A stretch of 64,000 nucleotides of DNA, taken from assembly GCF_017051705.1 (NCBI RefSeq), contig NZ_JAFIDJ010000001.1, positions 124,001 through 188,000 on the forward strand, in the 5' to 3' direction. The notes under the pieces are model-generated. The model did no database searches and was not told the DNA's origin. It worked only from the letters and a program-made list of their open reading frames with translations. Position numbers and translations under genes: made by a program. The stretch's first letter is position 1. Every line of letters starts with the position of its first letter. Positions 4,379-21,426 of this stretch are shown in pieces. The stretch is from Algoriphagus lutimaris (lineage in GTDB: Bacteria; Bacteroidota; Bacteroidia; Cytophagales; Cyclobacteriaceae).

Positions 4379-4600
4379 ATGAAATTCTTTTACTTAGCAT
4401 CTAGCCCAAATTCTGAAGGTGAATTTGAAATTCACGATCGTGAATGTGAGTTTATTCCGGATCTACATGAAAGAGAGTATTTAGGACCTTATAATAACGG
4501 CAAAGAAGCGATGCGGAAGGCATTGGATTTAAATCCCAAAGCAACTATTTGTGAGAAATGTGGTACGTCAGCTTTTCACGGGATTTTTTCTGACAAGTAA
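4379..4600 (+). CDS. Small Cys/His protein, possibly zinc-binding, hypothetical
   Basis: 73 residues. Two clusters of possible metal ligands are visible: H-D-R-E-C near residues 19-23 and C-E-K-C near residues 58-61. This spacing suggests a small zinc-binding fold, seen in short uncharacterised proteins of this phylum. No signal peptide. The gene lies immediately upstream of tRNA-Pro, and its last few codons are part of the segment duplicated at 21.26-21.43 kb. Confidence 0.6.
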   Translation: MKFFYLASSPNSEGEFEIHDRECEFIPDLHEREYLGPYNNGKEAMRKALDLNPKATICEKCGTSAFHGIFSDK

Positions 4601-4744
4601 TCTTTTATTTATAATTTTTTAAGATCCTACTTTATAAAATCATCGAAACTTGTAAATTCGAGCCTGTTTCGGGGTGTGGCGCAGTCCGGTTAGCGTACAC
4701 GTCTGGGGGGCGTGGGGTCGTGGGTTCAAATCCCGCCACCCCGA
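4568..4744 (+). repeat. Direct repeat copy 1 (end of small gene, spacer and tRNA-Pro)
   Basis: The end of the 4379-4600 gene, the spacer and the complete tRNA-Pro recur in the same orientation at 21258-21426. The roughly 55 bases upstream of the tRNA are nearly identical between copies; the tRNA part differs more. Confidence 0.8.
4670..4744 (+). tRNA. tRNA-Pro (anticodon GGG)
   Basis: Cloverleaf folded by hand. The acceptor stem CGGGGTG pairs with CACCCCG. The anticodon stem CACGT pairs with GCGTG around the loop CTGGGGG, placing GGG at positions 34-36. The T stem GTGGG pairs with CCCGC around TTCAAAT. The discriminator base is A at 4744. CCA is not encoded. A terminator follows within 10 bases. 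Confidence 0.93.
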
Positions 4745-4753
4745 CAATCATAG

Positions 4754-4922: not shown

Positions 4923-6245
4923 TTAGCATCCCCATTTGTATGGAGGTGGCTTGATAGACTCGCTGCAGGGGTTACCGGGTTCTGATGCATTTCTACATCG
5001 TTCTAGACCCTCTTCAATCGTGTACTTTGGATGTGGATAGGGTTGACCTTCGAAGAAGAGATCCATCTGTGCCAAGGCACAAATCATCATCTCATCATCT
5101 TTTGAAGGCGGTTTTGGTGCACCAATTCCATCTTTGTTTCCATACCATCTCATACAGGCTTGGGCCTTAGCATCTTCAGGATCTATACTGGGATTTTCAG
5201 AATAAATCTTAAGGAAAGTGGCTGCGACCAAATCTTGTGCTTCATACTGGCTGATATTAGGAATTTTGGTCTTGTCGTCCGTACAAAGTCCGGTCACGCC
5301 TGCCGCGATCATATGATTGCCTATGAGGTAGGGAGTTTCTCTTTTCGAATCTGGCCTCACCTTAAATTTCCCTGTTTGCATCACATTTACTTGAGGTACC
5401 TTGTCCACTTGCGGCAGAATGTCTGTGTATGCTGTTCTAAACCAACCTGGCGCCTGTGGATCGTAAAGAGGCGAACCACAAATTAATAGAGGAAGCGTGT
5501 ATTTGCTGTCTTCTGGTAAGTCCGGGGGAGAAAGATAAAGCTCCAACATTGACTTGATATAGTCTCGATCTGGTCCTCCGTCAAAAAAGCCAGAGGCCAT
5601 CATGATCGGGAAATAATCATTGGCATATTCACTCTCACCGGAGCCAGGAGCCGCAATAGGATTTACATCAATAAAGGTTTTGTACCTACTGATCTCAGAA
5701 GGGTCCACTCCGGCAGCCTCAAGAATCCGTCCCCAACGCTGGAAAGTCATAGCATTATCAAAGGTACCTGCCTGCAATACTGCCCATGGTGGATAGTGTA
5801 GGAGCAGAAGGCCTTTTTGTCCCATGACGTTCAGTCCGAGTGGAGGGAATAACTGCCATTTTGAGGTGCCGTCAGCAGGATTTTTGTTGACATGATATCC
5901 TTCCATTGGATTCCAAACCCCTAGTTCTTGAAGCAATTCTTTACCCCGTATTGCCTTGATGGCATAGTCTTTACTGAAAATTTTTGCATGGGTCGTACCG
6001 AAATTGACTAGCAAATCAATATCAACTTCGGCGTCAATTTCTATCAAATACTCCCCATCGACTAAGTCCACTTCGACCTTATCTATTTTAGAAATCCCGT
6101 CGGCTTTCAAGGAATTTGTGGTGTAATGTGCGATCACATCGCAAAAGTTTTTAACCTTTAATTTTTTGGGGTCCGCGTCTTTGGCGGGAGGGTAAAGTTG
6201 ATCTATAAAATGGGCAGAGCCCAGGGAGTATCTGTAAACAGTCAT
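4923..6245 (-). CDS. Unknown protein A of the glutathione-associated operon (homologue of protein B)
   Basis: 440 residues, no signal peptide or membrane helix, not a family I recognise. It is a distant homologue of protein B at 17519-18544. Both carry, in the same order and similar spacing, LH[FY]PP (A 149-153, B 134-138), RW (170, 155), APG (199, 184), ND (209, 196), GSP (257, 225), TP-x-L-x-x-NH (304-311, 261-268) and QDL (337, 290). The order APG, GSP, NH(PS) loosely recalls the motif layout of the uracil-DNA glycosylase superfamily; this is a weak guess. It is the last gene of the operon, 23 bases after the HAD gene, and precedes the terminator. It has an unusual Cys-containing C-terminal tail. 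Confidence 0.7.
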   Translation of the reverse strand: MTVYRYSLGSAHFIDQLYPPAKDADPKKLKVKNFCDVIAHYTTNSLKADGISKIDKVEVDLVDGEYLIEIDAEVDIDLLVNFGTTHAKIFSKDYAIKAIRGKELLQELGVWNPMEGYHVNKNPADGTSKWQLFPPLGLNVMGQKGLLLLHYPPWAVLQAGTFDNAMTFQRWGRILEAAGVDPSEISRYKTFIDVNPIAAPGSGESEYANDYFPIMMASGFFDGGPDRDYIKSMLELYLSPPDLPEDSKYTLPLLICGSPLYDPQAPGWFRTAYTDILPQVDKVPQVNVMQTGKFKVRPDSKRETPYLIGNHMIAAGVTGLCTDDKTKIPNISQYEAQDLVAATFLKIYSENPSIDPEDAKAQACMRWYGNKDGIGAPKPPSKDDEMMICALAQMDLFFEGQPYPHPKYTIEEGLERCRNASEPGNPCSESIKPPPYKWGC

Positions 6246-6268
6246 AAGCTTAAAATTTATTTCAAAAA

Positions 6269-7012
6269 TTATTTATTCCATCCAGTGAAATCAGAGATCA
6301 CATGAACTGAATCACTTGTGTATTTATCACTTGGATTCCAGGTAGTTTTTACCCAAAAATTCATTGCGTTGCAAAAGTGTTCTTGAAAAACCTCACAGTT
6401 ATGTGGTTCATTATCAAAAGTTGCGATCACGTTTCCATTCAAGGATTGAATTGATTTTATAGCATCAGCTTTATAGTCGGCATCCTTTTGGTCTACGTCT
6501 AGTTTTAAATTGAGTTCACATCTGCCTTGCCAAAACGGGAAGCCTCTGTTGGTAAGGCTCAATGTGGTGCCTTGGCCCATTCCATTTCTTAATCCACGGT
6601 CTCCAATATGCCTTCCGGTCAGGTAGTAGATCAGAGCGCCGCTTTGATAGCAAGCGTTTACAAAGTCTACAGCTCCAGGATTTGGAAGGTCTAAAGCCAC
6701 GTAGTCGTCAGTGAAAAAGGTAGACCCCCAATAGTTTCTAAATGGTGTAAGTGAAGCACTATTTGGATCTAAGCCGGCTTGAGTGAGCGCGAAGGACACA
6801 TTCCAGTTCATATCACCCAGAGTAAGGCCGGATGCTACTTTCACAAAATCAGGATACTTGTCTCCTTGGTCTGCGGCGAAGTTTTGAATGATAACAAGAT
6901 TTCTGCGTGCTGTGGCGAATAATGTGTCGTCCAGATCGAAGACTACAATTGGGAGACCTTTGGAGGATTTGATATTGGCAAGTACTTGTTGAAGGGGGGG
7001 GAAGTTTTCCAT
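6269..7012 (-). CDS. HAD-superfamily hydrolase
   Basis: 247 residues. Motif I is VVFDLDDT with the nucleophile D26 and the acid D28; motif II is YYLTGR (T132); a lysine near 181 fits motif III; motif IV is ATFDNEPHN (D200). These are the residues of a magnesium-dependent phosphatase. The insert between motifs I and II is about 100 residues, the size of a C1-type cap. No signal peptide, so cytoplasmic. The substrate cannot be told. It is the eighth gene of the operon, 42 bases after the glutamate-cysteine ligase gene and 23 before protein A. Confidence 0.8.
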   Translation of the reverse strand: MENFPPLQQVLANIKSSKGLPIVVFDLDDTLFATARRNLVIIQNFAADQGDKYPDFVKVASGLTLGDMNWNVSFALTQAGLDPNSASLTPFRNYWGSTFFTDDYVALDLPNPGAVDFVNACYQSGALIYYLTGRHIGDRGLRNGMGQGTTLSLTNRGFPFWQGRCELNLKLDVDQKDADYKADAIKSIQSLNGNVIATFDNEPHNCEVFQEHFCNAMNFWVKTTWNPSDKYTSDSVHVISDFTGWNK

Positions 7013-7054
7013 AATTCGTAAAAAGGTTTAGATGTAAAAAGATAAAGTAAAAAC

Positions 7055-8413
7055 TCAGATAATCAATGAATTATTTATTTGAAACTCCCGGATCAAATCA
7101 TCGGCAGGAGAGATTTGCTGACTAGTGTACTGCTCGAAGTACTCTAAGAGTAAATTCAGTTGCTCCTGACCTCTGAACTCAGAGGGTAAGGAAGTAAATC
7201 CTGAAATTGCCAGTTCGAAAAGCTTCAGAGCATAGTTGAAAAGAGCTTCATCCTCTAGTCCAAAACTCGCTTTATTCCAAAACTGCTTTAAATCGGGGAG
7301 AATTTCTTCGGTGAGTTCCAAGACCGCGTCTATGCTTTGATCATGGTATAATAGCCCACAGCAGAATGCCATTGGGACTAATTGCCATTTTTCTGGTAAT
7401 GCATCGCAGGACCGGAGTTCCAGAAAGCCTTTCAGTCTCACCTCTGGAAAGAGCAGTGTAAAGTGATTTCTAAGATCATCTATCGTAGGAGAAATCCCAG
7501 AAACGGGATTTTGAAGCCAGTCACTGAAGGAAAATCCCTTTGGAAGTGGCTTTGCTCCCAATCGATGGATATGGATCAGTGGTGCTTTCAATCCGAAATC
7601 CAAATAGGAATCGATTAATGAGTCAAGGTCCTGGTTTTTTTTGAAATCCAAGGGAAATCCAGTTCGCTGATGATCAAGATTTTGCCAAAGAAAACTTCGA
7701 TGCGACTTATGCGAAGTAAGCTTGACTGCTTGGATAGGAGAATGTGAGAAAATTGCAGTGAGAAAAGGCGCAATTAAATTGGATGCGATGATTCTTTTTC
7801 GTCGGGTTTCTTTGCTTTCTCCTAAATCTAAATTGATGTGAATAGAGCAAGTCAATAGCATCATTTGTTTTCCACTCAGGCTGATGCCGTTCAGATATTG
7901 CTGTAATGCCTGATATCTTGGTTTTGGCAGCTGCAGTCCGATTTGATTTTCATTAAGCCAGGGATTGGTACCATAAGATGCAAATCGGATTTCCTCATTT
8001 TGGGAAATGTCATTGAGAAAAGCCCAAGTGGATCCCAGTTGCGTTTGAATTTGATCAAAGCTGTTACAAGGAGCTGTAGCCACTTCCAATTGACCACCTG
8101 GCTCAAATTGAATAATGTCTCCGTGGGAAAGAATCACCTTATCTAAAAATCGTTTCTGGTGTTCTGGTAGGGAATAAAACACCGATTCTTGCGAAGTAGA
8201 TTTAGCAGTTTTTTCTATGGCTCCTGCAAGAGAATCTACCCCTTCATAAAGGGGGACTGGTACAATGGTTTTTTGATCGATGCGGTATGGAAAGCTTTCG
8301 ATTTCCAACCCGATTAATCCGGGCTTAGATGGATTTTTTTGAAGCTTTGGGCTGAAGAGCTCATCCTCAACAAACTTTCGACAAATATCCTGATTTAGGT
8401 TGGTGAATTCCAT
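7055..8413 (-). CDS. gshA: Glutamate-cysteine ligase (GCS2/EgtA or plant type)
   Basis: 452 residues. It should make gamma-glutamylcysteine from glutamate, cysteine and ATP, the first step of glutathione synthesis. Diagnostic motifs of the GCS2 family are present: GLEIES (35-40), QFEPGGQLE (102-110), a TCSIHINLDL strand with metal/ATP-contacting residues, TGFPLDF, and RLKGFLELRSCDALP near the C-terminus. Length fits the plant/EgtA branch rather than the roughly 520-residue E. coli GshA. Gamma-glutamylcysteine could also feed another thiol such as ergothioneine, but glutathione synthetase lies two genes upstream in the same operon, favouring glutathione. The spacing to the DNase II-like gene is 22 bases. 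Confidence 0.88.
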   Translation of the reverse strand: MEFTNLNQDICRKFVEDELFSPKLQKNPSKPGLIGLEIESFPYRIDQKTIVPVPLYEGVDSLAGAIEKTAKSTSQESVFYSLPEHQKRFLDKVILSHGDIIQFEPGGQLEVATAPCNSFDQIQTQLGSTWAFLNDISQNEEIRFASYGTNPWLNENQIGLQLPKPRYQALQQYLNGISLSGKQMMLLTCSIHINLDLGESKETRRKRIIASNLIAPFLTAIFSHSPIQAVKLTSHKSHRSFLWQNLDHQRTGFPLDFKKNQDLDSLIDSYLDFGLKAPLIHIHRLGAKPLPKGFSFSDWLQNPVSGISPTIDDLRNHFTLLFPEVRLKGFLELRSCDALPEKWQLVPMAFCCGLLYHDQSIDAVLELTEEILPDLKQFWNKASFGLEDEALFNYALKLFELAISGFTSLPSEFRGQEQLNLLLEYFEQYTSQQISPADDLIREFQINNSLII

Positions 8414-8435
8414 TAAAAAATAATTGAGGGCATAA

Positions 8436-9506
8436 TTACATTCTGTCGATATGTTCAGTTTTTTCTATCACTTTTTCTATTATTTCGATCTTTTTGAGGG
8501 TCTCCCAGAGTATAAGATTTTCAAATGCGATACCCCCTCCACCACGTCTTTCTTGGCTGATTTGGCGATTGATATCTGCGATAATGATCATGTTCTTTCG
8601 TTCATCAAAAGATATTCCCCATTTCGCATGGTCTTTTGAAAAACCCCAGCGGTATCCGTCCAAACCTATTTTTGATAAATCAATATCTACAATATCCTCT
8701 GTCAATTCGGATTTTACAGAATCGATATCATCAAAGACCATCCCACGGCGCCAAGTTTCGACACTCAGATTGATGGCCAAGGTGGGTCCGATCAAATCTT
8801 TCCAAAAATCAAAACCTATTTCTCCATTGGCCTTGGGTTTACTCCAAATCCTATTCTTAGCGATGAGTGAAAAAGTTTTTCCTGCCTTTGAAGTAAATGT
8901 CAGATTCGCGGGCTTGCTTGGTTTTTCATAAGGAAGATTTTTTGCAAACTTATAAATCGCGTCTTCCGCAGAGGCTTCCTCCAAATTGGATTCATAGACT
9001 TGACCTTCATTTTGGGTATGTACCACCTCAGCTATCGCATTGGCGGTTTCATAATCTTTTAAGCTTATGCAAAGATAAGTTTGGCCAAATTTTCGTTCAT
9101 TTTCCGGAAGTTCGATTTCAGCGCTAGTTGGGAATCTAGGAGTGGAGTGGAGGAGGTAAAAGCCAGAATTAGTTTCTTTTGAAAAAGCTAAAATTCCCTT
9201 AGAATGGCCCTTTTGACCTTGATTTTTAGGTTTGGGATTTTTTGGAGTTGGAGGAATTTCATCATTCCAAAGTACAAAACCACCTTTTTTTGGACTTGAA
9301 AAAATCTGGTTCAGAGTCAATCCCAAGGCCGACTTTTCTTCATTCAACCGTGTTGAAGATAATTTGACCCCGTCTGTTGACTGAGCGTCAAAATAAAGAA
9401 ATTCAAATCCCGAAGAATCCTTTTTTGGCCCTACGTTCATTGGAAGTTTGTACATAAACCACCAATCAACTGGTTTGCCATCCTCATTACTCAAAGGTGA
9501 AATCAT
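8436..9506 (-). CDS. DNase II-like endonuclease
   Basis: 356 residues, close to the length of animal DNase II. The N-terminus has DWWFMYKLP, matching the family's VDWW-x-x-YK-x-P start. Two HxK motifs occur at the expected places: GHSKG (H101, K103), followed by GFYLLHSTPRFP, and DHAKW (H293, K295). In DNase II these pair up in a phospholipase-D-like fold and cut DNA without metal at acid pH. There is no evident signal peptide, unlike the lysosomal enzymes, so where it meets DNA is unclear. It overlaps the upstream glutathione synthetase gene by 4 bases (ATGA), indicating coupled translation. Bacterial members are sparse. Confidence 0.85.
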   Translation of the reverse strand: MISPLSNEDGKPVDWWFMYKLPMNVGPKKDSSGFEFLYFDAQSTDGVKLSSTRLNEEKSALGLTLNQIFSSPKKGGFVLWNDEIPPTPKNPKPKNQGQKGHSKGILAFSKETNSGFYLLHSTPRFPTSAEIELPENERKFGQTYLCISLKDYETANAIAEVVHTQNEGQVYESNLEEASAEDAIYKFAKNLPYEKPSKPANLTFTSKAGKTFSLIAKNRIWSKPKANGEIGFDFWKDLIGPTLAINLSVETWRRGMVFDDIDSVKSELTEDIVDIDLSKIGLDGYRWGFSKDHAKWGISFDERKNMIIIADINRQISQERRGGGGIAFENLILWETLKKIEIIEKVIEKTEHIDRM

Positions 9507-10492
9507 GCCAACTTAGTTTTCGAATTGGAAACTATCTCCTCGATACACGAATAGAATTCTGCTGCACAATTCGTGGAAAAGAAATGATCTATCTCCTTGA
9601 TTCCAGTAGGGCTGGTGACGTTGATCTCTGTGAGATAATCGCCAATTACATCTATACCAACGAATAGAAGGCCTTTATCCTTGAGGATTGGACCAAGTTC
9701 GCGGCAAATCCAAAGGTCCTGATCTGTGAGTTTAAAGCCTTCAGCCTTCGCTCCCACAGCTAAATTCCCACGATGATCCCCTTTGCTGGGAATTCGGGTG
9801 ATTCCGTAGGGGATGGGCTCTCCATTGATTAGGATAATCCGCTTATCTCCCTTGATTTCAATCTCTGGAATATAAGCTTGGGCTTGCACATATTCGGTTT
9901 CTTTTCGAGTGATTTCTTCAAGAATTACATTGGTGTTGATATCTCCTTCAGCGATAACGAAAATGGATTGACCCCCCATTTTTCCTGTTGGCTTCACTAC
10001 GATTTTCTGGTGTTTGGTTAGAAATTCTTTAAGACGCTCTTTAGAGCGGGTGAGTATGCTCGGTGGGCAGCATTGCGGAACCCAAGCCGTAAAGACCTTT
10101 TCATTGACATCTCGAAGGGATTGAGCCTTATTCACCACGAGTACTCCTTGAGCTTCAGCGAGCTCCAAAATATAGGTGGACATTATAAACTCAATATCAA
10201 AAGGAGGATCTTTTCGCATCAAAATGACATCCAGGTCCCCTAAAGAAGTTTCCTCTTGGCTTTGGATCTCAAACCAATTGGACTGACTATTAAATAGCTT
10301 AACCCAGGTCAATTTGCCTTTTGCCTCGCCGTCTAGAATGAACAAGTCTTTCATTTCCAGATAAGCTACTTGGTGTCCGCGGGCCTGAGCTTCCAGCATG
10401 AGCGCTAGCGAAGTGTCTTTTTTAGGGTTGATCGAGTCTATTGGATCCATTACCACTCCTATTTTAAGGCACTTTTTGTTAGTTTGATCCAT
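9503..10492 (-). CDS. gshB: Glutathione synthetase (ATP-grasp)
   Basis: 329 residues, typical for GshB. It joins gamma-glutamylcysteine and glycine using ATP. Visible landmarks: the N-terminal GVVMDPIDSI strand-loop (E. coli begins similarly), the ATP-grasp strand IVVKPTGKMGGQSIF, KGDKRIILINGEPIPYGITRIP and the C-terminal TEINVTSPTGIKEID that binds metal and ATP. It follows the large kinase/cyclase gene by 52 bases and overlaps the DNase II-like gene by 4 bases. Together with the ligase at 7055-8413 it completes the glutathione pathway, which is uncommon in Bacteroidota. Confidence 0.92.
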   Translation of the reverse strand: MDQTNKKCLKIGVVMDPIDSINPKKDTSLALMLEAQARGHQVAYLEMKDLFILDGEAKGKLTWVKLFNSQSNWFEIQSQEETSLGDLDVILMRKDPPFDIEFIMSTYILELAEAQGVLVVNKAQSLRDVNEKVFTAWVPQCCPPSILTRSKERLKEFLTKHQKIVVKPTGKMGGQSIFVIAEGDINTNVILEEITRKETEYVQAQAYIPEIEIKGDKRIILINGEPIPYGITRIPSKGDHRGNLAVGAKAEGFKLTDQDLWICRELGPILKDKGLLFVGIDVIGDYLTEINVTSPTGIKEIDHFFSTNCAAEFYSCIEEIVSNSKTKLA

Positions 10493-10544
10493 AGGTCGCT
10501 GAGATAAAAAAGGTTGTGTTGAAAAACAGGATAAAGTTTATTAG

Positions 10545-13500
10545 TTATTTGAATGTCAAAACCTCATAACCTTCCCATGATTCAGAAGGTGGGTTGTCGG
10601 CGTATATGCTTGCCCTCTCTAGCAAAAGCCTGAATACAGGGTCCTCTGGATTGATTTTGGACCCTTCAAGAAAGGCCTTTTTTGCATTCTTGAAATCCCG
10701 ATCATAGTAAAATTCAAAGGCCTCCGATAGCAGTTTCATCGTAGATTCTTTTTGAGCTCTCCGCTCTTCATTCTCGGCATCTAGGACTTCATACAGCCTG
10801 ATGGCTTTTTCTTTACCTTTTACTGCCACCCGGTCTACCATGCGAATGGAGAATTTTTCAGGTTCGTCTAAGGCCAAAAATGTATTTTCGCCAATCAAAA
10901 ACTGCGAGCCGTAGGTTTTGGTGAGGTTTTCAACTCTAGATGCAAGGTTTACCGTGTCTCCCAAAACAGAACACTGCATGCGGTCAAGGCCCCCCATTGT
11001 ACCTAAAACCAGAGGACCTGTGTTTATCCCAATTCCCATGTTGAGTTGGGGCCGGTTTAAAGCACGGGATTGTTGATTGAAACGCCAAAGTTCTTGTCCC
11101 ATTTTCACTCCAGCCTCCACGGCTTGCTGAGCTGGTACGGCAAACAATGCCAAAATTTCATCTCCGGAATACGAATCGATAAACCCTCCGGCTTCAGTGA
11201 TATGGGTACCTTGCTTGCTGTAATATTCGTTCAAAAGTTCAATCACCGCTTGAGGAGTCAATAGCTCTACCAAAGGAGTGAAATCCCGGATATCCGAAAA
11301 TAGTACAGACATTTCCATGGAGACAGATTCACCCAATGCCACTTTTGCTATATCATTATGTCCCAAATGCTTCAGGAATTGGCTTGGGACAAATCTCTTT
11401 TGTGCCTTTAGCAGGATGTCTTGTTCCTCGTAAATTCTGGAGTTTTCTATTGAAATGGCCGCCTGTGCAGCAAGAAGTTTTATCACCTTAATCCTCCCTT
11501 CGGTAAATGCGCTATGGGTTAGATTATTTTCCAGATAGATCGCCAACTTCTGATTTTTATGATCAGCGATGGGTACACACATAACCGAGAGTGGCTTCGT
11601 CAGGAGGATATATGGATCTGTTGAGAAGTTATTGGGTTCAGATGCATTGCCTATCACGATGGGCTCATTGGTCCGAATGGCAGTATTGATAATGGTGATA
11701 GGTAAGCGGTCCGATTCCATAGTAAGCTCTGAAGCACTTTGGGTGGAATAGTCCTCCTCCAGATTGGATGCAAGAATGGATAATTGCCCATTGCTATCTT
11801 GCACCAGAAAGCCTCTTTGAGCCCCGGCGTTTTCGATCAGAATGTCGAGAGTAGCTTTCAGAAGTTTATCCAAAACAAGCTCTCCTGAGATAGATTGGGA
11901 GGCTCTGAACACAGAATTCATATCCAATTGATCACCACTAAAGATATCTGAACTTACACTTCTTTCGGAGGTTTTGGAGCGCAGGGTTTTGCCTGAAGAA
12001 TATGGATTGCTCTGTCGGAAAATATCATATTCTTTTTCCATTTCCTCTATTTTACGATGAGCTCCCCATCGGTAATAGAGATAATGTGCGGCTTTCAAAT
12101 ATCCTTCAGCTGCCTTTTCCAAGTTAATCCGAAGCAGGTATCGTCCAGCCATTTCATTGGCCATTGCTTCATCTCTCACAAAAGAATTGGCTTTTGCTGC
12201 CTGAATCGCGGCTTCGTAGAGTTGGATTGCAGTATTGGTTTGGCCAAAATGCCCTTCAAGCTCTGCTTCCATCAGTAGTTTGAGGTGTTCAAAGTTTTCA
12301 GGACAATGCGCAGCCCAAAAACTCATTCGCTCCAAGCTCGCCTTCATTTTTCGGATGCTCAAAGCCTGTCCTTCTTCGTCCTCCAACTCAAAATACATGG
12401 AACGGACCAAAAAGGAAATGATATGAAAGCGCACTAGTTGCGGCAACGACATCACGGAAGCCATGAGCTTCTCTTGCTCCAAAATATGTTCTATGGCTCC
12501 TTTGGGATGATTATAGAGCAAATAAATCTCAGATTTATAAATATGGTAGTTCGCGATACCCGTCATAAATCTTCGTTCGTGCATACCTTTCACGCACTCT
12601 TCCTCATTGAAATCCTCATTAGACATGGAGAAAGTACTTTCAGTAAGGCCTTGGAAGTTCAATTGCATTTGAAGAAACAGGGTGCCCGAATCGTATGAAT
12701 CTTGATATTCGCAGTCTTTGACGATAGTTAGGAGCTTTCTATGCTCTTTGGTTACATATTCCAAGTCCAAACTGGGGTCCCAAATAATGCAATCCTGTGC
12801 ACTGTAAGCCAAATAGAGTAAATCACCAGATTGATAACCCGCTTCTATACCCTTTTTAAACCATGGAGTCATACTTGACCAATGCTTGCTCCAGTGATGA
12901 ACGAACATGGCATATACATACATGATTCTTGACCTGAGAGCCAAATCGTCAAAAGACTCGATCAAGTCAACACTGAGTTTTCCGTATTTGTAGCCTTTGG
13001 CGGGATCGTCCAAGAACCCACAAAGAATCATCCCATACGCTCCGTAAGCAAAAGCAGTTTCGGGACTATTTCCATATTTCAGAGCGAGATTTACGGATTT
13101 TAAGGTTAAGTATGGGAAAAGAGTGCCACTGCCAGATAAGAATGCTGCGGCAAAAATTTCCATCAAAAGCTGACTGGCTATTCGAGCTTTAGGGTCAGTG
13201 AGAGGAGGTGCTTGGATTAAATCTTCCACAGCTCTTCCCTTGAGATTAATGACCACATTTTGGACTTCCTGATCTACATCGGCTTGTGTGGGGTTTTCAT
13301 TAAATACGAATCCAAGAGCTAACAGGCCTTCTTGAGCAGCCACAATGGACTCCTTCATTTTACCAATGGTGGCATATTGCCTCGTCCGAGCGGAAAGAAC
13401 AAGTGCCTTTTCGATCTCGGATCTGGAATGGGAAAGCATGATTTCGGTCCATTTCTCCGCGTTTTCCCGATCACCGGTTAGGTAGAAACAGTGCTGAAGC

Positions 13501-15956
13501 TCTTCGGCTAGCTTCCATTTGAGGGAATAATTTTTTTCCCAATCAATATCTTGAAGAATTTCTAGGCTGATTTTGAGAAAGTTGAGGGCAGAAGCGTAGG
13601 CTGAAGACTGCTTGGCTTTGATGCCTGCTTGTAAGTTCAGATCAGCAATTTCAATCAGTTCTTCTTGGTCTTTGACCAGAACTCTTCCTTCATTTAGATG
13701 ACTCACCACATCCATCAAAACATCCTCCAGGCCATTTTCCCGAGTATGATTCAGGATGAGTTTGCCAATCGAAAGATGAACTTGCTTTCTTTTTTCAGGC
13801 AAGATCATGGTGTAAACTGCCTGCTGCACCCGGTCATGCTGAAACTTGTAGGAAGGATTTAGATGATTTGACTCTAATTCAAAACGATCTGAATTTACTG
13901 GATCTTCTCCTCCCTCTCCAACTCCAACAAGTTTATAATTCTCATTAAGCGGCAGAATCATGTTTGCTTTTAGGGCATCATAGAGCTGTACTGCCGTTTT
14001 CTCCATCGTACTTTCCCCAATGATGGCCAGCGTTTTCAAGTCAAATTTAGCCCCTATACAGGCAGCGAGCTGAAGAATATTTTGGGTCTCGGGCTTGAGT
14101 CTATTCTGTCCCTCCACCAAAAAATCAATGACATTATCACTTTGCTGGACACGTTTTACTTGTTCCAATTCTACTTCCCATTTGCCTAAGCTGGAATTGA
14201 AGTAAATACTACCTTGCTCGTGAAGATTCTTAAGAAGCTCAATCGTAAAAAATGGATTTCCATCGGTTTTTTCGAAAAGAATCTTAGATAATGTATCCGT
14301 GTCTTGGTCCACTCGCATGAGGGTGTCCTCTGTGATTTGACGTACCGCATCTATGCTCAATGGCTGCAAAGAAAGATGGTCAACCTTTCGCTTTTCTTCA
14401 ATTTCGTTTAACGTGAGACGAAAAGGGTGGGATTGGTCCACCTCATTGTCGCGGTATGCCCCTATGATCAGAAGGTTGCTCAAGTCCTGATTGGTAACCA
14501 ATCGCTGAATTAAATTGAGCGTAGGAATGTCACTCCACTGCAAGTCGTCCAAAAAGATGACCATGGGGTGAAGCTTGTTTGCAAAGACTTTGACAAAGTT
14601 CAAAAATTGAATTAAGAATCTATTTTGGGACTCTTCTGGTGAAAGTTCCTGAACTACCTGCTGAGGACCGATGATCAACTCTAGTTCTGGGATTAGATCG
14701 ATGATGAGTTGAGCATTGCTTCCTAGAGCCTCAGAGATTTGTTCATTCCAATGATCGAGTCTTTCTTTTGGCTCACCCAAAAGTTGTCTTACAAGATCTC
14801 GAAAAGCATTAGAAAGGGCTCTATAAGCGGTGTTTTGCTTGAATTGTTCAAATTTTCCATGGATCAAGTAGCCATGCTTTTTAACGATGGATCGTCCTAA
14901 TTCATGAACAAGGACTGATTTTCCCACTCCTGAATAACCAGCCACTAGGCAAAATTCAACCGCCCCATCTGCGGCTTTTGTAAAAAACTCTTCGAGCTTC
15001 TGCAGCTCTGCATTACGACCGTATATTTTTTGAGGGATCTGAAATTGACTTGAAGCATCGAATTGTGCCAGTTCGAAGTCTGGGTTGTCTTTTCCATTTT
15101 TAAGATCATCCCAGATTCTTTCTAAATCAGATTTTAATCCAAAACTACTTTGGTACCGATCTTCTGCGTTTTTTGCGATCAATTTGGCTACCAGATTGGA
15201 TAAAGCCATTGGTATTTTGGGACTGACTTCATGAAGTGGATCAGCCTTCTTACTGATATGAGCGTAAACCCATTCCAAGGCGTCATTCGCCTGAAAAGGT
15301 AGCTTTCCTGAGAGCATCTGATAGAAGGAAATTCCCAAGGCATAGTAGTCAGTTCTATAATCTATGTCCCGATTCATCCTTCCCGATTGCTCGGGAGAAA
15401 GGTAGGGGAGGGAACCTTCGATGACTTTGGAAAAGGTAACATCTTGATGCTCCCGAAAAAGCTCAGAAGATGCGCTGAAATCAATTATTCGCAAATCCTT
15501 GGTCTCGGGATCAATTAGGATATTTCGAGGTACCAGGTCCTTATGAATAATCCGGTTTTCGTGTACGACTCCTAGAGCCGCCACAATTTTGATTGCAATC
15601 TCGAAAAACTCAGCCAAGGGAATGGTTTTGTTCTCCAGACTTTCTAAATATTGGCTGAGGGAAATTCCAAATGGCTCCATGGCGATGGCAAGATTCCCAT
15701 TACCATAGGGAATGAGTTCAAATGCCTTGATCACATCTTGCCCTTGAACTTTCGTGAGAATATTGAATTCTCTGCGGATACTAGCGAGCCACTCTTTTTT
15801 AGGGTAGTGGTCCTGAAGCGTTTTCAGGACCACTTCTTGATCATCCAGAGTTCTTTTGGCTCTGTAAATCACGTGAGGAAAAGAGTCACAGATTTTCTCC
15901 AATACCGAATGGTTCGGAATCCTATCCGTGATGCTATTCTCCTTTTTCTTACTCAC
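10545..15956 (-). CDS. Giant Ser/Thr kinase - AAA ATPase - helical repeat - GAF - adenylate/guanylate cyclase
   Basis: 1803 residues. Domains in order: a protein kinase (about 20-290; K45, HKDLVPRN catalytic loop, IDFS in place of DFG, SPEQSGRM); a predicted ATPase (about 315-600; Walker A GYSGVGKS, Walker B IFLDDLQWSD); a long TPR-like helical region (about 700-1290); GAF (about 1345-1500); a class III nucleotide cyclase (about 1585-1710; FSDIRDFT and GDEILALF carrying the metal aspartates, GIGINTGPLVLGTMGG); and a short C-terminal tail. The first four resemble cyanobacterial/proteobacterial PknK-like sensors that usually end in a histidine kinase or a diguanylate cyclase; here the output is a cyclase. 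Catalytic residues look intact. It starts 4 bases after the DUF4336-like gene, so it is inside the operon. Confidence 0.9.
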   Translation of the reverse strand: MSKKKENSITDRIPNHSVLEKICDSFPHVIYRAKRTLDDQEVVLKTLQDHYPKKEWLASIRREFNILTKVQGQDVIKAFELIPYGNGNLAIAMEPFGISLSQYLESLENKTIPLAEFFEIAIKIVAALGVVHENRIIHKDLVPRNILIDPETKDLRIIDFSASSELFREHQDVTFSKVIEGSLPYLSPEQSGRMNRDIDYRTDYYALGISFYQMLSGKLPFQANDALEWVYAHISKKADPLHEVSPKIPMALSNLVAKLIAKNAEDRYQSSFGLKSDLERIWDDLKNGKDNPDFELAQFDASSQFQIPQKIYGRNAELQKLEEFFTKAADGAVEFCLVAGYSGVGKSVLVHELGRSIVKKHGYLIHGKFEQFKQNTAYRALSNAFRDLVRQLLGEPKERLDHWNEQISEALGSNAQLIIDLIPELELIIGPQQVVQELSPEESQNRFLIQFLNFVKVFANKLHPMVIFLDDLQWSDIPTLNLIQRLVTNQDLSNLLIIGAYRDNEVDQSHPFRLTLNEIEEKRKVDHLSLQPLSIDAVRQITEDTLMRVDQDTDTLSKILFEKTDGNPFFTIELLKNLHEQGSIYFNSSLGKWEVELEQVKRVQQSDNVIDFLVEGQNRLKPETQNILQLAACIGAKFDLKTLAIIGESTMEKTAVQLYDALKANMILPLNENYKLVGVGEGGEDPVNSDRFELESNHLNPSYKFQHDRVQQAVYTMILPEKRKQVHLSIGKLILNHTRENGLEDVLMDVVSHLNEGRVLVKDQEELIEIADLNLQAGIKAKQSSAYASALNFLKISLEILQDIDWEKNYSLKWKLAEELQHCFYLTGDRENAEKWTEIMLSHSRSEIEKALVLSARTRQYATIGKMKESIVAAQEGLLALGFVFNENPTQADVDQEVQNVVINLKGRAVEDLIQAPPLTDPKARIASQLLMEIFAAAFLSGSGTLFPYLTLKSVNLALKYGNSPETAFAYGAYGMILCGFLDDPAKGYKYGKLSVDLIESFDDLALRSRIMYVYAMFVHHWSKHWSSMTPWFKKGIEAGYQSGDLLYLAYSAQDCIIWDPSLDLEYVTKEHRKLLTIVKDCEYQDSYDSGTLFLQMQLNFQGLTESTFSMSNEDFNEEECVKGMHERRFMTGIANYHIYKSEIYLLYNHPKGAIEHILEQEKLMASVMSLPQLVRFHIISFLVRSMYFELEDEEGQALSIRKMKASLERMSFWAAHCPENFEHLKLLMEAELEGHFGQTNTAIQLYEAAIQAAKANSFVRDEAMANEMAGRYLLRINLEKAAEGYLKAAHYLYYRWGAHRKIEEMEKEYDIFRQSNPYSSGKTLRSKTSERSVSSDIFSGDQLDMNSVFRASQSISGELVLDKLLKATLDILIENAGAQRGFLVQDSNGQLSILASNLEEDYSTQSASELTMESDRLPITIINTAIRTNEPIVIGNASEPNNFSTDPYILLTKPLSVMCVPIADHKNQKLAIYLENNLTHSAFTEGRIKVIKLLAAQAAISIENSRIYEEQDILLKAQKRFVPSQFLKHLGHNDIAKVALGESVSMEMSVLFSDIRDFTPLVELLTPQAVIELLNEYYSKQGTHITEAGGFIDSYSGDEILALFAVPAQQAVEAGVKMGQELWRFNQQSRALNRPQLNMGIGINTGPLVLGTMGGLDRMQCSVLGDTVNLASRVENLTKTYGSQFLIGENTFLALDEPEKFSIRMVDRVAVKGKEKAIRLYEVLDAENEERRAQKESTMKLLSEAFEFYYDRDFKNAKKAFLEGSKINPEDPVFRLLLERASIYADNPPSESWEGYEVLTFK

Positions 15957-15960
15957 TTAA

Positions 15961-16677
15961 CTAGACGTTAAAAAACCTATTGAATGTTTGGTGGTACTCA
16001 GCCTGAGCATTGTTTATAAATGGATAACCATGACCGCAAAGCGCATGTTCGAAAGGAATTTCTTTCAAGCGGATAAAATCACTTGGCTCAGGTTTACTTT
16101 CGTGAAGCCAAGCTAGTCCCAAGTTTGCTTTGACGAAGAAATTCATATTGGCCATGGTACTTACCGTTTCGGGGTCAAAAAACTCATCTGGTTCTACCCA
16201 GTTCTGAAGAGAGTCGCAAGCGATCATCACTCCACCTTCACGATCTAGTCGGAGAATGCCTTCTGGTCTTTTTACTGATTTGAATTCGAAAAAGGAGCAA
16301 TTGCTAAATGGCATTTCTCCGCCTTCGGTAAGCCATTTGTCGACTTTAAGATCTTTTTGAACATCCATGCCTGGCATAGCCCAAAAGGTAGCTTTATAGT
16401 GGTCTACGTAAAACGGATCGTCTACGCCGTGCATGTCCCCGATTCGTACCACATTGACCACCTTTCCTAGCTTGTCTAGTTCTGCCAGTCCTTCATCACT
16501 CAGGCGAACAGAATTGATAATGGTGAGATTTCCATTTTCTCGGACCACTGTCATATTTCTACTAAACTGCCACATAGAGCCAAAAAATTCATTTTTCATC
16601 GATCCAGTCACGAAAAATACGTCTGGTAATACTTCCTGAATGTTGCCATGAGGAAGTGCGTCTTGATAATGTGCCAT
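15961..16677 (-). CDS. DUF4336-like metallo-beta-lactamase-fold protein
   Basis: 238 residues, no signal peptide. The segment MTVVRENGNLTIINSV and the following LGKVVNVVRIGDMHGVDDPFY match the DUF4336 family, which has a metallo-beta-lactamase fold with a degenerate HxHxDH motif; here H-G-V-D-D is what remains. A late GHG (near residue 217) sits where the fold's C-terminal histidine falls. Some members could hydrolyse thioesters, such as glutathione conjugates in glyoxalase-II-like enzymes, which would suit this operon, but that is inference. It lies 48 bases after the GGCT-like gene and 4 bases before the giant signalling gene. Confidence 0.65.
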   Translation of the reverse strand: MAHYQDALPHGNIQEVLPDVFFVTGSMKNEFFGSMWQFSRNMTVVRENGNLTIINSVRLSDEGLAELDKLGKVVNVVRIGDMHGVDDPFYVDHYKATFWAMPGMDVQKDLKVDKWLTEGGEMPFSNCSFFEFKSVKRPEGILRLDREGGVMIACDSLQNWVEPDEFFDPETVSTMANMNFFVKANLGLAWLHESKPEPSDFIRLKEIPFEHALCGHGYPFINNAQAEYHQTFNRFFNV

Positions 16678-16725
16678 AACTAAACTTAATTTGTGTGTGA
16701 TAAACGTTTGATAAATATCTTATTT

Positions 16726-17517
16726 TTAAAAATAATATTGTTCCATTCTGCCTAAGTATTGGAATTCTTTTTCGTATTCGTGCAAATAGGCATTGAGATA
16801 GTTTTTCGCTCCTATAGAGATTTTCCCCTTTTTGATATCCTCCATGGTTTCCTTACCAGTACTGCTATCATGTCTTTTAGCATGAAATAGCGTCATGTCC
16901 TTGCCACCAAATAATGACTTTACCGGTGCTAGCTTTGGTCTACATTCAGACATGTCAAAAACAAATCCTGATAGCACGGTCAGGTTTGGATTATCTCTGA
17001 CCTCATCGAAAGTGAAAATTCGATTCGAACTTGGGTTGAAACTAGGATAATCCTTGAGTTCCAATATTTCCTGGGACTCAAGATTTGAAATATATTTCGG
17101 TGAAAATTCGGCTTCTTTGGCTCCTTTCAAGATGATGGAAAGATATCTACGAGTAGGGAGACAAGATTCATTCAGATAAGCTGGAAGTCCTACATAGGCA
17201 AAGGCCTTCTTTATTGATCCATCGAGTGTTTCTACTTTGACTTCGACTCTGTCGTATCCCACGCCCTTGGATTCCATGGCGTCCAGCGAAGCCAAACTCT
17301 CATCCGGGCAGGCATGGAGCATTCCCTCCACGAAGGATTCTGCATTGGAGGATGGCTCGATATTGCCCATACCACCTTCATGTTTAAACCAATGCTCAAC
17401 ATTGAATTTCAATTCCCATCCTCTCAAAAATGCTCGCTCGGACGAAAATGGATTCACTCCTTTGGCTCGGAGTGAGATCATATTGATGTTGGAACCGTAC
17501 CCGAAGTAATAGAACAT
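16726..17517 (-). CDS. Gamma-glutamylcyclotransferase-like protein
   Basis: 263 residues. It begins with YFGYGSN (4-10), the GGCT substrate-binding loop, and has DAMESKGVGYDR with E82 in the position of the catalytic glutamate. The family releases 5-oxoproline from gamma-glutamyl peptides or glutathione. The N-terminal 150 residues are GGCT; the rest is an extension I do not recognise. It starts 1 base after protein B ends, so the two are tightly coupled. In an operon that also makes glutathione, a role in turnover or editing of gamma-glutamyl compounds is the natural reading. Confidence 0.8.
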   Translation of the reverse strand: MFYYFGYGSNINMISLRAKGVNPFSSERAFLRGWELKFNVEHWFKHEGGMGNIEPSSNAESFVEGMLHACPDESLASLDAMESKGVGYDRVEVKVETLDGSIKKAFAYVGLPAYLNESCLPTRRYLSIILKGAKEAEFSPKYISNLESQEILELKDYPSFNPSSNRIFTFDEVRDNPNLTVLSGFVFDMSECRPKLAPVKSLFGGKDMTLFHAKRHDSSTGKETMEDIKKGKISIGAKNYLNAYLHEYEKEFQYLGRMEQYYF

Positions 17518-17518
17518 C

Positions 17519-18544
17519 TTATGGGTTGAAATTATAAGCTTGATCCTCTTGATTCATGATTTCTGCAAGCCTTGGATTTGCAGTCCAGTAGGCTGTGAGA
17601 GATTCCAAAACTTTGAAGGGGCAATCATTTGGGTGCTTAGACATTCGGGCTTGCCATCCTGCGGAAATCAAATCCTGAGTTAGAAGTTTCTCTTTAGCTT
17701 CCGAATAGGGTTTGTCTGCATAGTACAAGTACTCACTTGGATGATTGGCCGCCAAAACGGGTGTTTTGGTGTCATCATCAAAGAAGTGGATTTCGGCTAT
17801 TTTCAACGTATCAAAATATCCATCAATTTGATCAGAGTAATTTTTCTTTAGCCAGTCATGTACAGGACTTCCATGGGCCACAAGTGGAACCGTGGTCTTT
17901 TTATATGTCCTAAGTCTCGCCTGAAGCATGACTTTGACATAATCCGTGAAGGTATCATTGAAGGGGTTAATCCCATCGGCATCCCCACCAGGAGCACCTA
18001 AGGGCACACAATCCACCACACTCTCCAATACCGAGAAATTGGTGTCATGCACGCCATTGTAACCTAGAAGATTTTCCCATCGACGGTTGGTAGGAGAAAA
18101 CAAATAATCGGTATAGTCATAAGTCTCAATCGGTGGGAAATGCAAAAACTGCACAGATCGAGTGTTAGCCATAGCAGTTCCAAACGGCAAAATAAATCTC
18201 ATTTCCTTTCCCGTGCTCTTAATCACCGAATCAATCATGGACTGTTTGTCCCGCTTTATTTCCAGTGCCTTTTGAGCAGCAGAAATGAAATCTGGAACTT
18301 TGGTTTCATAGGCCGATAGATCATGATGTGGGCTAGAAAGTTTTAAATTATACGTACCGTCTTTTTGCCAAACCTTAGCCCAAGCCCCAAAAAAACCATC
18401 GCGCTGAAGCGTGAGGTTAAATGCATGTCCGATGAAAGTTTCCAGATTTGTAAGTCCAGCGATACTTTTTTCGGCCGTGAAAGAGAATATTTCGGCTAAA
18501 TCATCCTCCTTGCAAGATAGGGTAAGATCAACACTGTTTTTCAT
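17519..18544 (-). CDS. Unknown protein B of the glutathione-associated operon (homologue of protein A)
   Basis: 341 residues, cytoplasmic by sequence, no family recognised. Shares an ordered set of motifs with protein A: LHFPP 134-138, RW 155-156, APGG 184-187, ND 196-197, HGSPVHDWL 224-232, NHPS 267-270, QDL 290-292. HGSP...NHPS is a little like the late motifs of uracil-DNA glycosylase-fold proteins; untested. It is the first gene of the nine-gene operon and starts 241 bases from the likely start of the divergent phospholipase-like gene (18786). Confidence 0.7.
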   Translation of the reverse strand: MKNSVDLTLSCKEDDLAEIFSFTAEKSIAGLTNLETFIGHAFNLTLQRDGFFGAWAKVWQKDGTYNLKLSSPHHDLSAYETKVPDFISAAQKALEIKRDKQSMIDSVIKSTGKEMRFILPFGTAMANTRSVQFLHFPPIETYDYTDYLFSPTNRRWENLLGYNGVHDTNFSVLESVVDCVPLGAPGGDADGINPFNDTFTDYVKVMLQARLRTYKKTTVPLVAHGSPVHDWLKKNYSDQIDGYFDTLKIAEIHFFDDDTKTPVLAANHPSEYLYYADKPYSEAKEKLLTQDLISAGWQARMSKHPNDCPFKVLESLTAYWTANPRLAEIMNQEDQAYNFNP

Positions 18545-18785
18545 AGAATATAAGCTTTACTTGAAAAAGAATTTTTTGATAAAAAGATGATTTAAAAAAC
18601 GAGGAGTTCAATCCTAGATAAGTCCAAAATCATAGAATGAAATATACATTTATTGTTTTGAAAATATGACTTTTTTTAGAAAAAAATCATTTTTAATCTG
18701 GCTTATTATCCCTACTTTTCATTCCTTCAACCACGTTTGTGGACTTAGTAATTTTTGTTTTTATAACCATTTATTTTCTAAAATC
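18545..18785. promoter_or_regulatory. Divergent control region between the operon and the phospholipase-like gene
   Basis: AT-rich 241-bp spacer between the ATG of protein B (minus) and the preferred ATG of the phospholipase-like gene (plus). Both promoters must lie here if the layout is as read. I could not fix a convincing TTTG/TAnnTTTG pair in either direction. Confidence 0.5.
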
Positions 18786-20945
18786 ATGAGTACTTTCCTT
18801 TTTAGTCGTAGTGATTCCTCAGCAAAATTTACAGTTTGGAAATTTGATCCGCAGAGTGACCAAGTTTTTTCTAAAGTAGATGTTGATCCTAACTTTACCC
18901 TAAATCAAGGTTACCAGCTCGCTTCGGTTGGCGGGTATCTCCTTAGCTGGGGTCCAAATCAAAAAAATGCTCCATGTCTTCCAGACGGATTTCCTTTCGA
19001 GCTTTTGGAACCAAATGCCGAGCCAGGCAAGCCTTTCTCTGTGAAGGCCATCCAAAAAGGTGCTTTGCCTCCCAGTAAGTTTTGGGGGTATCGAGGGCAT
19101 TATTCCTCAAGCCAAGACGAGCAAAAGACCCTTCCACTGATTTCCATGGGAAATTTCTTGATGTTCTTCGTAGGCGGAAAAGGTCGTGGCACTTACACGT
19201 TATACAATTTTGATCCCAAGCCTTCAGATCCATTAAACCCTGATCCAATCCCAAGCGGATTTACTCCTCAGGGTGGATTTCCAAGTATCCATGAAGGTCA
19301 TGAGTTGGTTAATTTTGGGAATTATGTTTTGGATCGTTTTCCTGATGGAAGCACTTATCGAATCTGGAATTTTGATCCACAAAATACGGTGCCTCTATCC
19401 ATTCCAGAAGTCAACACAGGAGAGTGGAAAGGAATTACTTCAGCACACAAAGTAATTGCAGTAGGTAAAAAATTGTTGACTTGGATTCCAGGGGAGCTGA
19501 ATTTTTCTCTTTGGTCTGTCAATCCTTTTGCCAAAAACCCGTTCACGGAAGAAGTTTGTGGAGGAAGTTTGCCTACTGAGTTTAAGTCAGGAAGTACTAT
19601 ATCTTGTTTTGAAAGCCTGGAGGAAATTAAAGTTAAGGATGCTCCGGCGCCTGGCACCTTGGATTTCATGCGTACAAAAATCAAGAAAGTCGTCTACTAC
19701 ATGGTGGAAAGTCGCTCTTTTGATAATGTATGTGGCTGGCTGTATGAAAATGATTTAGCTAAAATCAATTACATCGGTTCGGATAAGCCTTTTGAAGGAG
19801 CGAGTAGCTCAAACACCAACCCTTATCAAGGCAAGAGTATCCCACAGAGCAAATACCAAAATGGAGCTTTGAGTGACCAGTGGGATTTGAAAGCAGAGAG
19901 TCAGGATCCTTTTCATGATACCTCTGATGGACTCTCCCAAATGTTTAATGATGAAGGGCAAGGCTATGCTAAACGAGAAAAACCAAGTATGGAAGGTTTT
20001 GTGGAAAACAACTCAAATCCGGAAGTTATGCTGTCTTTTACACCTAATCAACTTCCAGTTTTGAATGGGCTGGCCAACAACTTTGCCATTAGTGATGAGT
20101 GGTTCAGCTCGGTACCTGGAGGCACAGATATCAATCGTTCTTTTTCAGTTACAGGTTCTGCTATGAATCGTCTTGACACATGGGAGGGAGGAAGTATTTA
20201 TGCAAACTGGGCAGATTATCCGCATAGACCTTCACTTTGGAAGATTTTGTATAACAATGGAATCAAGGATTGGAAAATCTTTAATGTGATTGATTGGTTG
20301 GGTAAGCCTTTTACCTATCACTTGTATCTGGAAGGACAAGTACCATCCATCGATGCATATCCTACGCCGTATATCAATAGTTTGAATACATTTAAAATGC
20401 AGGCGAGATACGGTGAGTTGCCTTCTTTCAGTTTTCTAGAGCCGATTTGGATTGCTCCCGTGGGAACTACCTCATACCATCCTGGAGGTGACATGGTCCC
20501 CGCCGAAATTCAATTGAATGAAATCTATGAGGCGATTAAAAACGGACCAAATTGGGAGGATACCTTGCTGGTAATCACCTTCTCTAAGAATGGTGGTCTG
20601 TATGATCACGTTGCGCCACCTTATGCAGCTAAACCTTTCGCTAATGATGGGGTAGATGGTTTTGAGTTTGATATATTAGGGCCAAGAGTCCCTACAATTA
20701 TGGTTTCTCCTTGGATCAAAGAAAACACAGTCATCAGATCAGGGGAGGACACACCCTTTGACTCCACCTCATTTGCTGCCACTTTGCTGAAATGGTATGG
20801 TGTGCCTAAGTCACGTTGGGGAATGGGTGATAGGATGGATCAGGCACCCACTTTTGAAGCAGTCTTTCAAGAATCTGCCCCAAGAAAGGATAAACCTGAG
20901 TTTGAGCGACCTTTTGACAAGTCCTTTCCAAAGATGGATAGTTAA
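18786..20945 (+). CDS. Phospholipase C/acid phosphatase-family (PF04185-type) protein with N-terminal repeats
   Basis: About 719 residues from the ATG at 18786. An upstream in-frame ATG at 18666 would add 40 residues, but that stretch is AT-rich and unlike the rest. Residues 1-270 hold about four degenerate repeats with a [FY]-x-[LIV]-W-x-FDP core followed by a G-x-x-x-x-x-x-G-x-x-L segment, like propeller blades. The rest is the phosphoesterase domain: ESRSFDN near 308, GGTDINRSFSVTGSA, GGDMVPAEIQ, YDHVAPP, GPRVPTIMVSPW. The family normally has ENRSFD and DE-x-GG as metal ligands; here they read ESRSFD and SKNGG (near 598-602), so activity is doubtful. No clear signal peptide. Confidence 0.8.
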   Translation: MSTFLFSRSDSSAKFTVWKFDPQSDQVFSKVDVDPNFTLNQGYQLASVGGYLLSWGPNQKNAPCLPDGFPFELLEPNAEPGKPFSVKAIQKGALPPSKFWGYRGHYSSSQDEQKTLPLISMGNFLMFFVGGKGRGTYTLYNFDPKPSDPLNPDPIPSGFTPQGGFPSIHEGHELVNFGNYVLDRFPDGSTYRIWNFDPQNTVPLSIPEVNTGEWKGITSAHKVIAVGKKLLTWIPGELNFSLWSVNPFAKNPFTEEVCGGSLPTEFKSGSTISCFESLEEIKVKDAPAPGTLDFMRTKIKKVVYYMVESRSFDNVCGWLYENDLAKINYIGSDKPFEGASSSNTNPYQGKSIPQSKYQNGALSDQWDLKAESQDPFHDTSDGLSQMFNDEGQGYAKREKPSMEGFVENNSNPEVMLSFTPNQLPVLNGLANNFAISDEWFSSVPGGTDINRSFSVTGSAMNRLDTWEGGSIYANWADYPHRPSLWKILYNNGIKDWKIFNVIDWLGKPFTYHLYLEGQVPSIDAYPTPYINSLNTFKMQARYGELPSFSFLEPIWIAPVGTTSYHPGGDMVPAEIQLNEIYEAIKNGPNWEDTLLVITFSKNGGLYDHVAPPYAAKPFANDGVDGFEFDILGPRVPTIMVSPWIKENTVIRSGEDTPFDSTSFAATLLKWYGVPKSRWGMGDRMDQAPTFEAVFQESAPRKDKPEFERPFDKSFPKMDS

Positions 20946-21257: not shown

Positions 21258-21426
21258 TAGCTTCTGAGGGTTTTTCTGATAAGTAATCTTATTTTAAATT
21301 TTTTGAGATCCTACTTTATAAAATCATCGAAACTTGTAAATGCGAGCCTGTTTCGGGGTTTGGTGCAGTCCGGTTAGCGTACACGTCTGGGGGGTAGGGT
21401 TGTGGGTTCTAATCCCGTTACTCCGA
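21258..21426 (+). repeat. Direct repeat copy 2 (decayed copy of the tRNA-Pro locus)
   Basis: Same orientation as 4568-4744. It includes traces of the small gene's last codons (TCTGATAAGTAATC against TCTGACAAGTAATC), a nearly identical 55-base leader, and a degenerate tRNA. Confidence 0.8.
21354..21426 (+). pseudogene. tRNA-Pro(GGG) pseudogene
   Basis: Aligned to the intact tRNA at 4670-4744 it keeps the D arm and the anticodon loop CTGGGGG. It has lost 2 bases after the anticodon, so the anticodon stem CACGT now faces GTAGG with two mismatches. Several substitutions, mostly C to T, weaken the acceptor stem (one G-T and one T-T). It is not expected to fold as a working tRNA. Confidence 0.8.

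Follow-up and report, generated by a model that had tools for sequence, protein, structure and literature searches.

The closest described relatives of the genes considered here belong to several kinds of system: classical two-step glutathione synthesis by GshA and GshB, the TOMM kinase/cyclase fusion and the PknK-like STAND kinases, bacterial DNase II, the non-specific phospholipases C, and the uracil-DNA-glycosylase (UDG)-superfamily enzymes Brig1 and Brig3, which have a role in defence (excerpts of PMC11078745 and PMC13160076). We report here on a set of ten genes in a 64,000-nucleotide stretch of the Algoriphagus lutimaris genome (G000; NCBI RefSeq assembly GCF_017051705.1, contig NZ_JAFIDJ010000001.1, positions 124,001 to 188,000 of the forward strand), hereafter the window. 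The set comprises an operon of nine minus-strand open reading frames (ORFs) at 4923-18544, the coordinates being those of a first-pass annotation of this DNA, and one divergent gene. It looks like an undescribed system: kept across species, it brings together enzymes of thiol synthesis, hydrolases for DNA and for lipid, and a signalling giant, with no PADLOC counterpart. Text searches of open-licence papers returned no paper on this gene combination, which is not proof of absence.

The first-pass annotation had proposed nine minus-strand genes with spacings of -4 to 52 bases, a terminator and a divergent gene, and all of these were present. In the order of transcription the operon runs from protein B (341 aa, 17519-18544) through a gamma-glutamylcyclotransferase (GGCT)-like protein (16726-17517), a metallo-beta-lactamase (MBL)-like protein (15961-16677), an 1803-aa giant protein (10545-15956), the glutathione synthetase GshB (9503-10492), a DNase II (8436-9506), a GCS2-type glutamate-cysteine ligase (7055-8413) and a HAD-type phosphatase-like protein (6269-7012) to protein A (440 aa, 4923-6245), with intergenic gaps of 1, 48, 4, 52, -4, 22, 42 and 23 bases. 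An intrinsic terminator on the same strand (4918-4887), with a 14-pair stem and a T run after it, adjoins the stop of A at 4923. The divergent gene lies on the plus strand (18666-20945) and encodes a phospholipase C (PLC)-like PF04185 phosphoesterase. Its true start is probably 18786 rather than 18666; the latter may be too early because four of the seven relatives align from residue 41, which corresponds to 18786, and the other three from residues 20, 30 and 32.

Comparison of gene neighborhoods across genomes showed that the grouping is not accidental. Protein A was found in seven of the 73 genus genomes searched, the window's own included, and all seven carriers have the genes for the GGCT-like, MBL-like and giant proteins, GshB, DNase II, GCS2, HAD and A together with the divergent gene, with order and orientation unchanged throughout; protein identity of the six other carriers to the window is about 41-78%, and B is present in four of the seven. 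The genome G513 belongs to a different family within the order; its set consists of GGCT, MBL-like, giant kinase, GshB, GCS2, A and PLC genes, lacks DNase II, HAD and B, and has the PLC gene after A on the same strand. Because G513 has the set without them, DNase II, HAD and B are classed as accessory, the other seven genes making up the core. The idea of the first-pass annotation that the set is one unit passed the check proposed for it, A, the nuclease and the giant kinase being together in all seven genus carriers and B with them in four, but the nuclease falls outside the minimal core, since A and the kinase co-occur in G513 without it. In that genome 567 bases lie between GCS2 and A (L046, 1737-2303), at the site that DNase II and HAD occupy elsewhere, and match neither.

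Beyond the genus, the genomes sampled were Bacteroidota, in an order sample and a phylum sample that overlap each other and the genus set; one wider contig scan used B alone. With a profile of A and B, matches came from five of 390 order genomes and three of 395 phylum genomes. The MBL-like protein was found in 4 of 241 genomes of the order, every one a carrier, and DNase II turned up in four of the 395 Bacteroidota genomes, namely G291 and three carriers. One Bacillota relative of B (L024) was set aside as chance, the match lying in a 799-aa ORF that by eye resembles a cellulose synthase subunit, and the rest of the set was not found there. On plasmids there were no relatives of A or B, one of DNase II and three MBL-like genes (Vibrio), and the one Vibrio locus examined held no other gene of the set; among phages no relative of the MBL-like protein was found. 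Relatives of A, DNase II and the MBL-like protein were not confirmed on viral contigs, a result that weighs neither way on defence. The species that have the set are a minority and keep its genes together, and we are all but certain that it is a real, conserved, island-like unit.

The locus has the traits of a tRNA-associated island: there is a direct repeat where the tRNA gene lies, and close relatives lack the set at this site. Its left edge is an intact tRNA-Pro (GGG) gene (4670-4745, plus strand; ARAGORN, Rfam) and its right edge a decayed copy of that gene with upstream DNA (21271-21426, plus strand), which matches 4585-4744 at 90% over 160 columns. In G018 both flanks are 87-93% identical in DNA to the window, there is a single tRNA-Pro, and the place of the operon is taken by a cluster of SusC/SusD-like, anti-sigma and sigma-factor genes (named by eye) in about 7.3 kb; G067 keeps the flanks as well, with a comparable cluster occupying about 9.1 kb at the site. 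The operon of G034 also adjoins tRNA-Pro, where a second tRNA copy was not detected. Among the matches listed, the operons of G016, G023 and G062 sit at one common other location, and G075 and G079 have the PLC-side flank in common. The operon has a G+C content of 42% and the flanks 38-39%. None of the ten genes between the repeats matched an integrase family in Pfam and NCBIfam scans. Acquisition as a unit fits these data, and so do loss and swapping. As a separate observation, G018 (L103, 12904-16729) and G067 (L105, 2099-6008) have about 3.8-3.9 kb of extra DNA relative to the window near position 3360.

As to function, we tentatively favor a cytosolic module that handles DNA under the control of a sensor and makes its own glutathione, a reading that we regard as possible rather than probable. 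In this scheme the ATPase, GAF and repeat parts of the giant protein would serve to sense stress or an invader, and phosphorylation, a cyclic nucleotide or both would turn the module on. Abnormal bases would be the targets of A and B, and lipid that of the PLC-like enzyme, a companion or an effector of last resort; DNA would be processed by DNase II together with the HAD enzyme, and the glutathione made by the operon would support or limit the chemistry. The products are predicted to be cytosolic. Judged by eye, the sequences of A, B and DNase II show no hydrophobic N-terminus; the PLC ORF of the window can be read with 40 further N-terminal residues that contain a hydrophobic stretch, the G062 and G079 proteins are extended too, and those of G016, G023, G034 and G075 begin at a conserved Met without an extension. 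The two functions suggested by the first-pass annotation, thiol-linked stress and nucleic-acid targeting, would both fit the data.

The part assigned to A and B depends on their fold. The two proteins are homologous (E = 1e-12, 24% identity) and matched no known family in Pfam and NCBIfam scans, in agreement with their earlier description as related, family-less proteins that open (B) and close (A) the operon. The UDG superfamily was proposed for them from motifs, ahead of any structure search. Structure models of both proteins were of low confidence. UDG, TDG or UdgX entries made up 12 of 50 VIA rows for the B model and 12 of 13 rows with at least 140 aligned residues, and for the A model 6 of 50 rows and 6 of 7 with at least 130. 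From these comparisons we infer that A and B may be divergent proteins of UDG-like fold, which would bind or excise DNA bases. Pfam UDG families gave no match to either protein at E 1, and Foldseek with both models returned nothing at E 0.05 or below. Alignment of A and B to UDG families by hhalign gave at most 3%, where UDG-versus-UDG controls were also under 30% in seven of eight pairs. Motif A of UDG enzymes carries a catalytic Asp or Asn (Glu in family 4). This residue was not found in A or B, where the stretch, positioned by eye, reads LH-[Y/F]-PP in 11 of 11; because the usual catalytic residue is missing, A and B were not filed under the UDG superfamily.

The best-scoring UDG for the B model was 4ZBY, which is also the best structural match of Brig1 (excerpts of PMC11078745), and the Brig3 gene likewise lies in an operon (excerpts of PMC13160076). 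A and B thus resemble Brig1 and Brig3 in a possible UDG-like fold, B and Brig1 in the match to 4ZBY, and the set and Brig3 in the operon setting, but A and B differ from the Brig proteins in lacking the usual catalytic residue, in the low confidence of the fold and in loci that mostly do not look like defence islands; the glutathione genes, DNase II and giant kinase found here are not named for the Brig loci in the excerpts of the two papers.

A chemical link between bases and glutathione has precedent, in that 3'-GS-ddR, a glutathione-capped 3' end, is said to have been shown to form from abasic sites and glutathione with spermine present (excerpts of a review, PMC12564780). With such chemistry, an operon holding both base-handling proteins and glutathione synthesis would be chemically sensible. 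We consider improbable a more specific version, in which the giant sensor would control a glycosylase-fold pair, DNase II and the phospholipase; here A and B would create abasic sites and glutathione would attack these, leaving cleaved, capped ends that would resist repair in invading DNA (or, in host DNA, could be dealt with). If the glycosylase fold of A and B is true, a single genetic unit would link glutathione to the processing of DNA bases.

The giant protein combines a Ser/Thr kinase, a STAND-like AAA_16 ATPase, a GAF domain and a class III cyclase, and its kinase and Walker motifs are preserved in eight of eight relatives. Like the TOMM fusion and the PknK-like STAND kinases, it matches TIGR03903 and kinase models through its kinase and ATPase regions; unlike the TOMM fusion it stays far under the TIGR03903 equivalog cut-off (125 vs 706 bits), and it differs from both kinds of protein in its extra GAF domain and in two cyclase positions. 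These two positions, usually Lys and Asp, read Ser and Gln in all eight relatives (residues 1590-1674 of the protein at 10545-15956), hinting at an unusual product or none; the cyclase product cannot be predicted.

By homology, the operon encodes both steps of glutathione synthesis together with a GGCT-like protein. GshB exceeds two NCBIfam glutathione-synthase equivalog cut-offs (416.1 vs 272 and 394.4 vs 299.05 bits) and matches the solved structure 1gsa with 348.8 bits. The GCS2 protein scores 116.6 bits against a Pfam cut-off of 21, and its best solved-structure matches are plant chloroplast glutamate-cysteine ligases (134-137 bits, PDB); an identity as the ergothioneine ligase EgtA was rejected, the equivalog cut-off being missed (180.9 vs 370.8 bits). 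The GGCT-like protein passes the cut-offs of AIG2_2 (41 vs 27 bits) and GGACT (33.7 vs 22.8 bits) and matches human GGCT at E = 1.8e-4. As in classical GshA/GshB synthesis, a ligase for the first step and an equivalog-level GshB are found, here in one operon, but the genes are embedded with a nuclease, a phospholipase, A and B and the giant kinase.

These genes could instead be the purpose of the unit, as a thiol-stress operon in which the kinase/cyclase switches glutathione synthesis and turnover in a species otherwise without it, while the hydrolases and A and B repair or recycle damaged DNA and lipid. We consider this somewhat unlikely. In its favor, GCS2, GshB and GGCT all lie within the core kept by G513. 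Strong matches to GSH-S_ATP (E 2.4e-49 or better) were found in 17 of the 73 genus genomes, the seven carriers with the operon copy and ten non-carriers with another GshB, and the remaining 56 have weak GshB-like matches only, of about 70 bits or less; in the window genome the operon copies are the sole strong GshB and the sole GCS2. However, G079 has a second strong GshB besides its operon copy, and five of the seven carriers have a second, different GCS2, the operon copy being the sole one in G075 as in the window genome. The apparent lack of glutathione elsewhere further rests on a survey of GSH-S_ATP and GCS2, with GshF fusions and the PF04262 ligase outside it, and a thiol-stress role does not account for DNase II, PLC and A being part of the unit as well.

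Of the hydrolases, DNase II scores 241.9 bits against a Pfam cut-off of 23 and is homologous over its full length to the solved structure 5i3e (207 bits), which we take to be from Burkholderia thailandensis. The hallmark of DNase II is a pair of HxK-type catalytic motifs, and both (GHxKG and DHxKWG) are invariant in all seven carriers, so that family cut-off and motifs together mark the predicted DNase II as genuine. The G062 copy (L026, 5833-6903) has one in-frame stop, which could be either decay or a sequencing error; those of the other six carriers have none. For bacterial DNase II, whose cellular role is apparently little studied among the papers listed, the operon would offer a physiological setting. 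The PLC-like protein scores 181.2 bits against a cut-off of 23, and its closest solved structure is that of non-specific phospholipase C4 (8hav; 131 bits over the catalytic domain); it differs from that enzyme and from bacterial PF04185 proteins in about 295 extra N-terminal residues, counted from the probable start, and in its operon setting. The HAD-type protein stays under the Pfam cut-off for Acid_phosphat_B (22.8 vs 27 bits), and its DLDDT motif is invariant in all seven carriers. The MBL-like protein, without firm family, had nothing at E 0.01 in the Pfam scan, Lactamase_B_5 alone appearing at E = 0.025. Among the family labels of the first-pass annotation, GCS2, GshB, GGCT, DNase II and kinase/cyclase were borne out; DUF4336 was not (nothing at E 0.01), and HAD stayed below its threshold.

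The hydrolases invite a second alternative, intracellular phosphate recycling, in which the PLC-like protein, DNase II and HAD would free phosphate from the cell's own lipid and DNA in starvation, with the kinase/cyclase steering and the glutathione genes protecting. The likeness to phospholipase C4 speaks for it, as does plant phosphate recycling, which consists in degradation of intracellular phosphoesters and nucleic acids (excerpts of a review, PMC9888252), and G291, where DNase II is paired with a PF04185 gene, by homology a DNase II/PLC-like pairing outside the operon. We nevertheless think it unlikely: G513 keeps the glutathione genes without DNase II and HAD, phosphate recycling leaves A, B and glutathione turnover without a function, and the family matches of the ten proteins include neither a phosphate transporter nor a Pho regulator. 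At the G291 locus (L032, 7418-16375), where DNase II adjoins the other phosphoesterase, a gene that is molybdenum-hydroxylase-like by eye lies nearby.

The third alternative is cell-suicide anti-phage defence, in which the STAND-like kinase/cyclase would detect infection and unleash cytosolic DNase II and phospholipase C on host DNA and membrane, A and B recognizing modified phage DNA; it overlaps in its parts with the DNA-handling module. The patchy, island-like distribution at a tRNA gene supports it, as do known UDG-superfamily defence enzymes in Brig1 and Brig3 (excerpts of PMC11078745 and PMC13160076) and the resemblance of the kinase/cyclase domains to PADLOC models such as PD-T4-6 and PycC. 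Flank ORFs of 150 aa or more numbered 133, in a list that omits the PLC-side flank of G016 as a near repeat of that of G023, and 126 of them were scanned for defence families; in the best 25 of 88 matching families the strongest matches trace to one place in G079, where a type I restriction system lies some 6 kb from A, and the flanks mostly do not look like defence islands. With nine of the ten proteins unmatched in PADLOC-DB, the giant protein matching through generic kinase and cyclase domains, flank matches concentrated at one locus, G513 without DNase II and the glutathione genes without obvious role, we hold this explanation to be more doubtful still.

Two further observations concern partner genes. 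On a Burkholderia pyrrocinia plasmid (L037, 8773-24436) a DNase II gene lies near genes for a tyrosinase, a PNP_UDP_1-domain protein, a metallophosphoesterase and a ferritin-like protein and three RebB genes, so that this copy is near R-body genes, unlike the window copy in its glutathione and signalling operon. An R-body link was considered and set aside; RebB was unmatched in the window genome, in a search that matched no control either, so that its absence is unproven. About 2 kb from the operon, a plus-strand gene at 1732-2910 encodes an HD-domain protein with PycTM, a Pycsar effector family. A Pycsar link, with the cyclase and a PycTM partner, was considered and rejected: matches to the HD-PycTM gene at E 1e-40, some of them partial, occur in 28 of the 73 genus genomes, namely in three of the seven carriers and in 25 of the 66 non-carriers.

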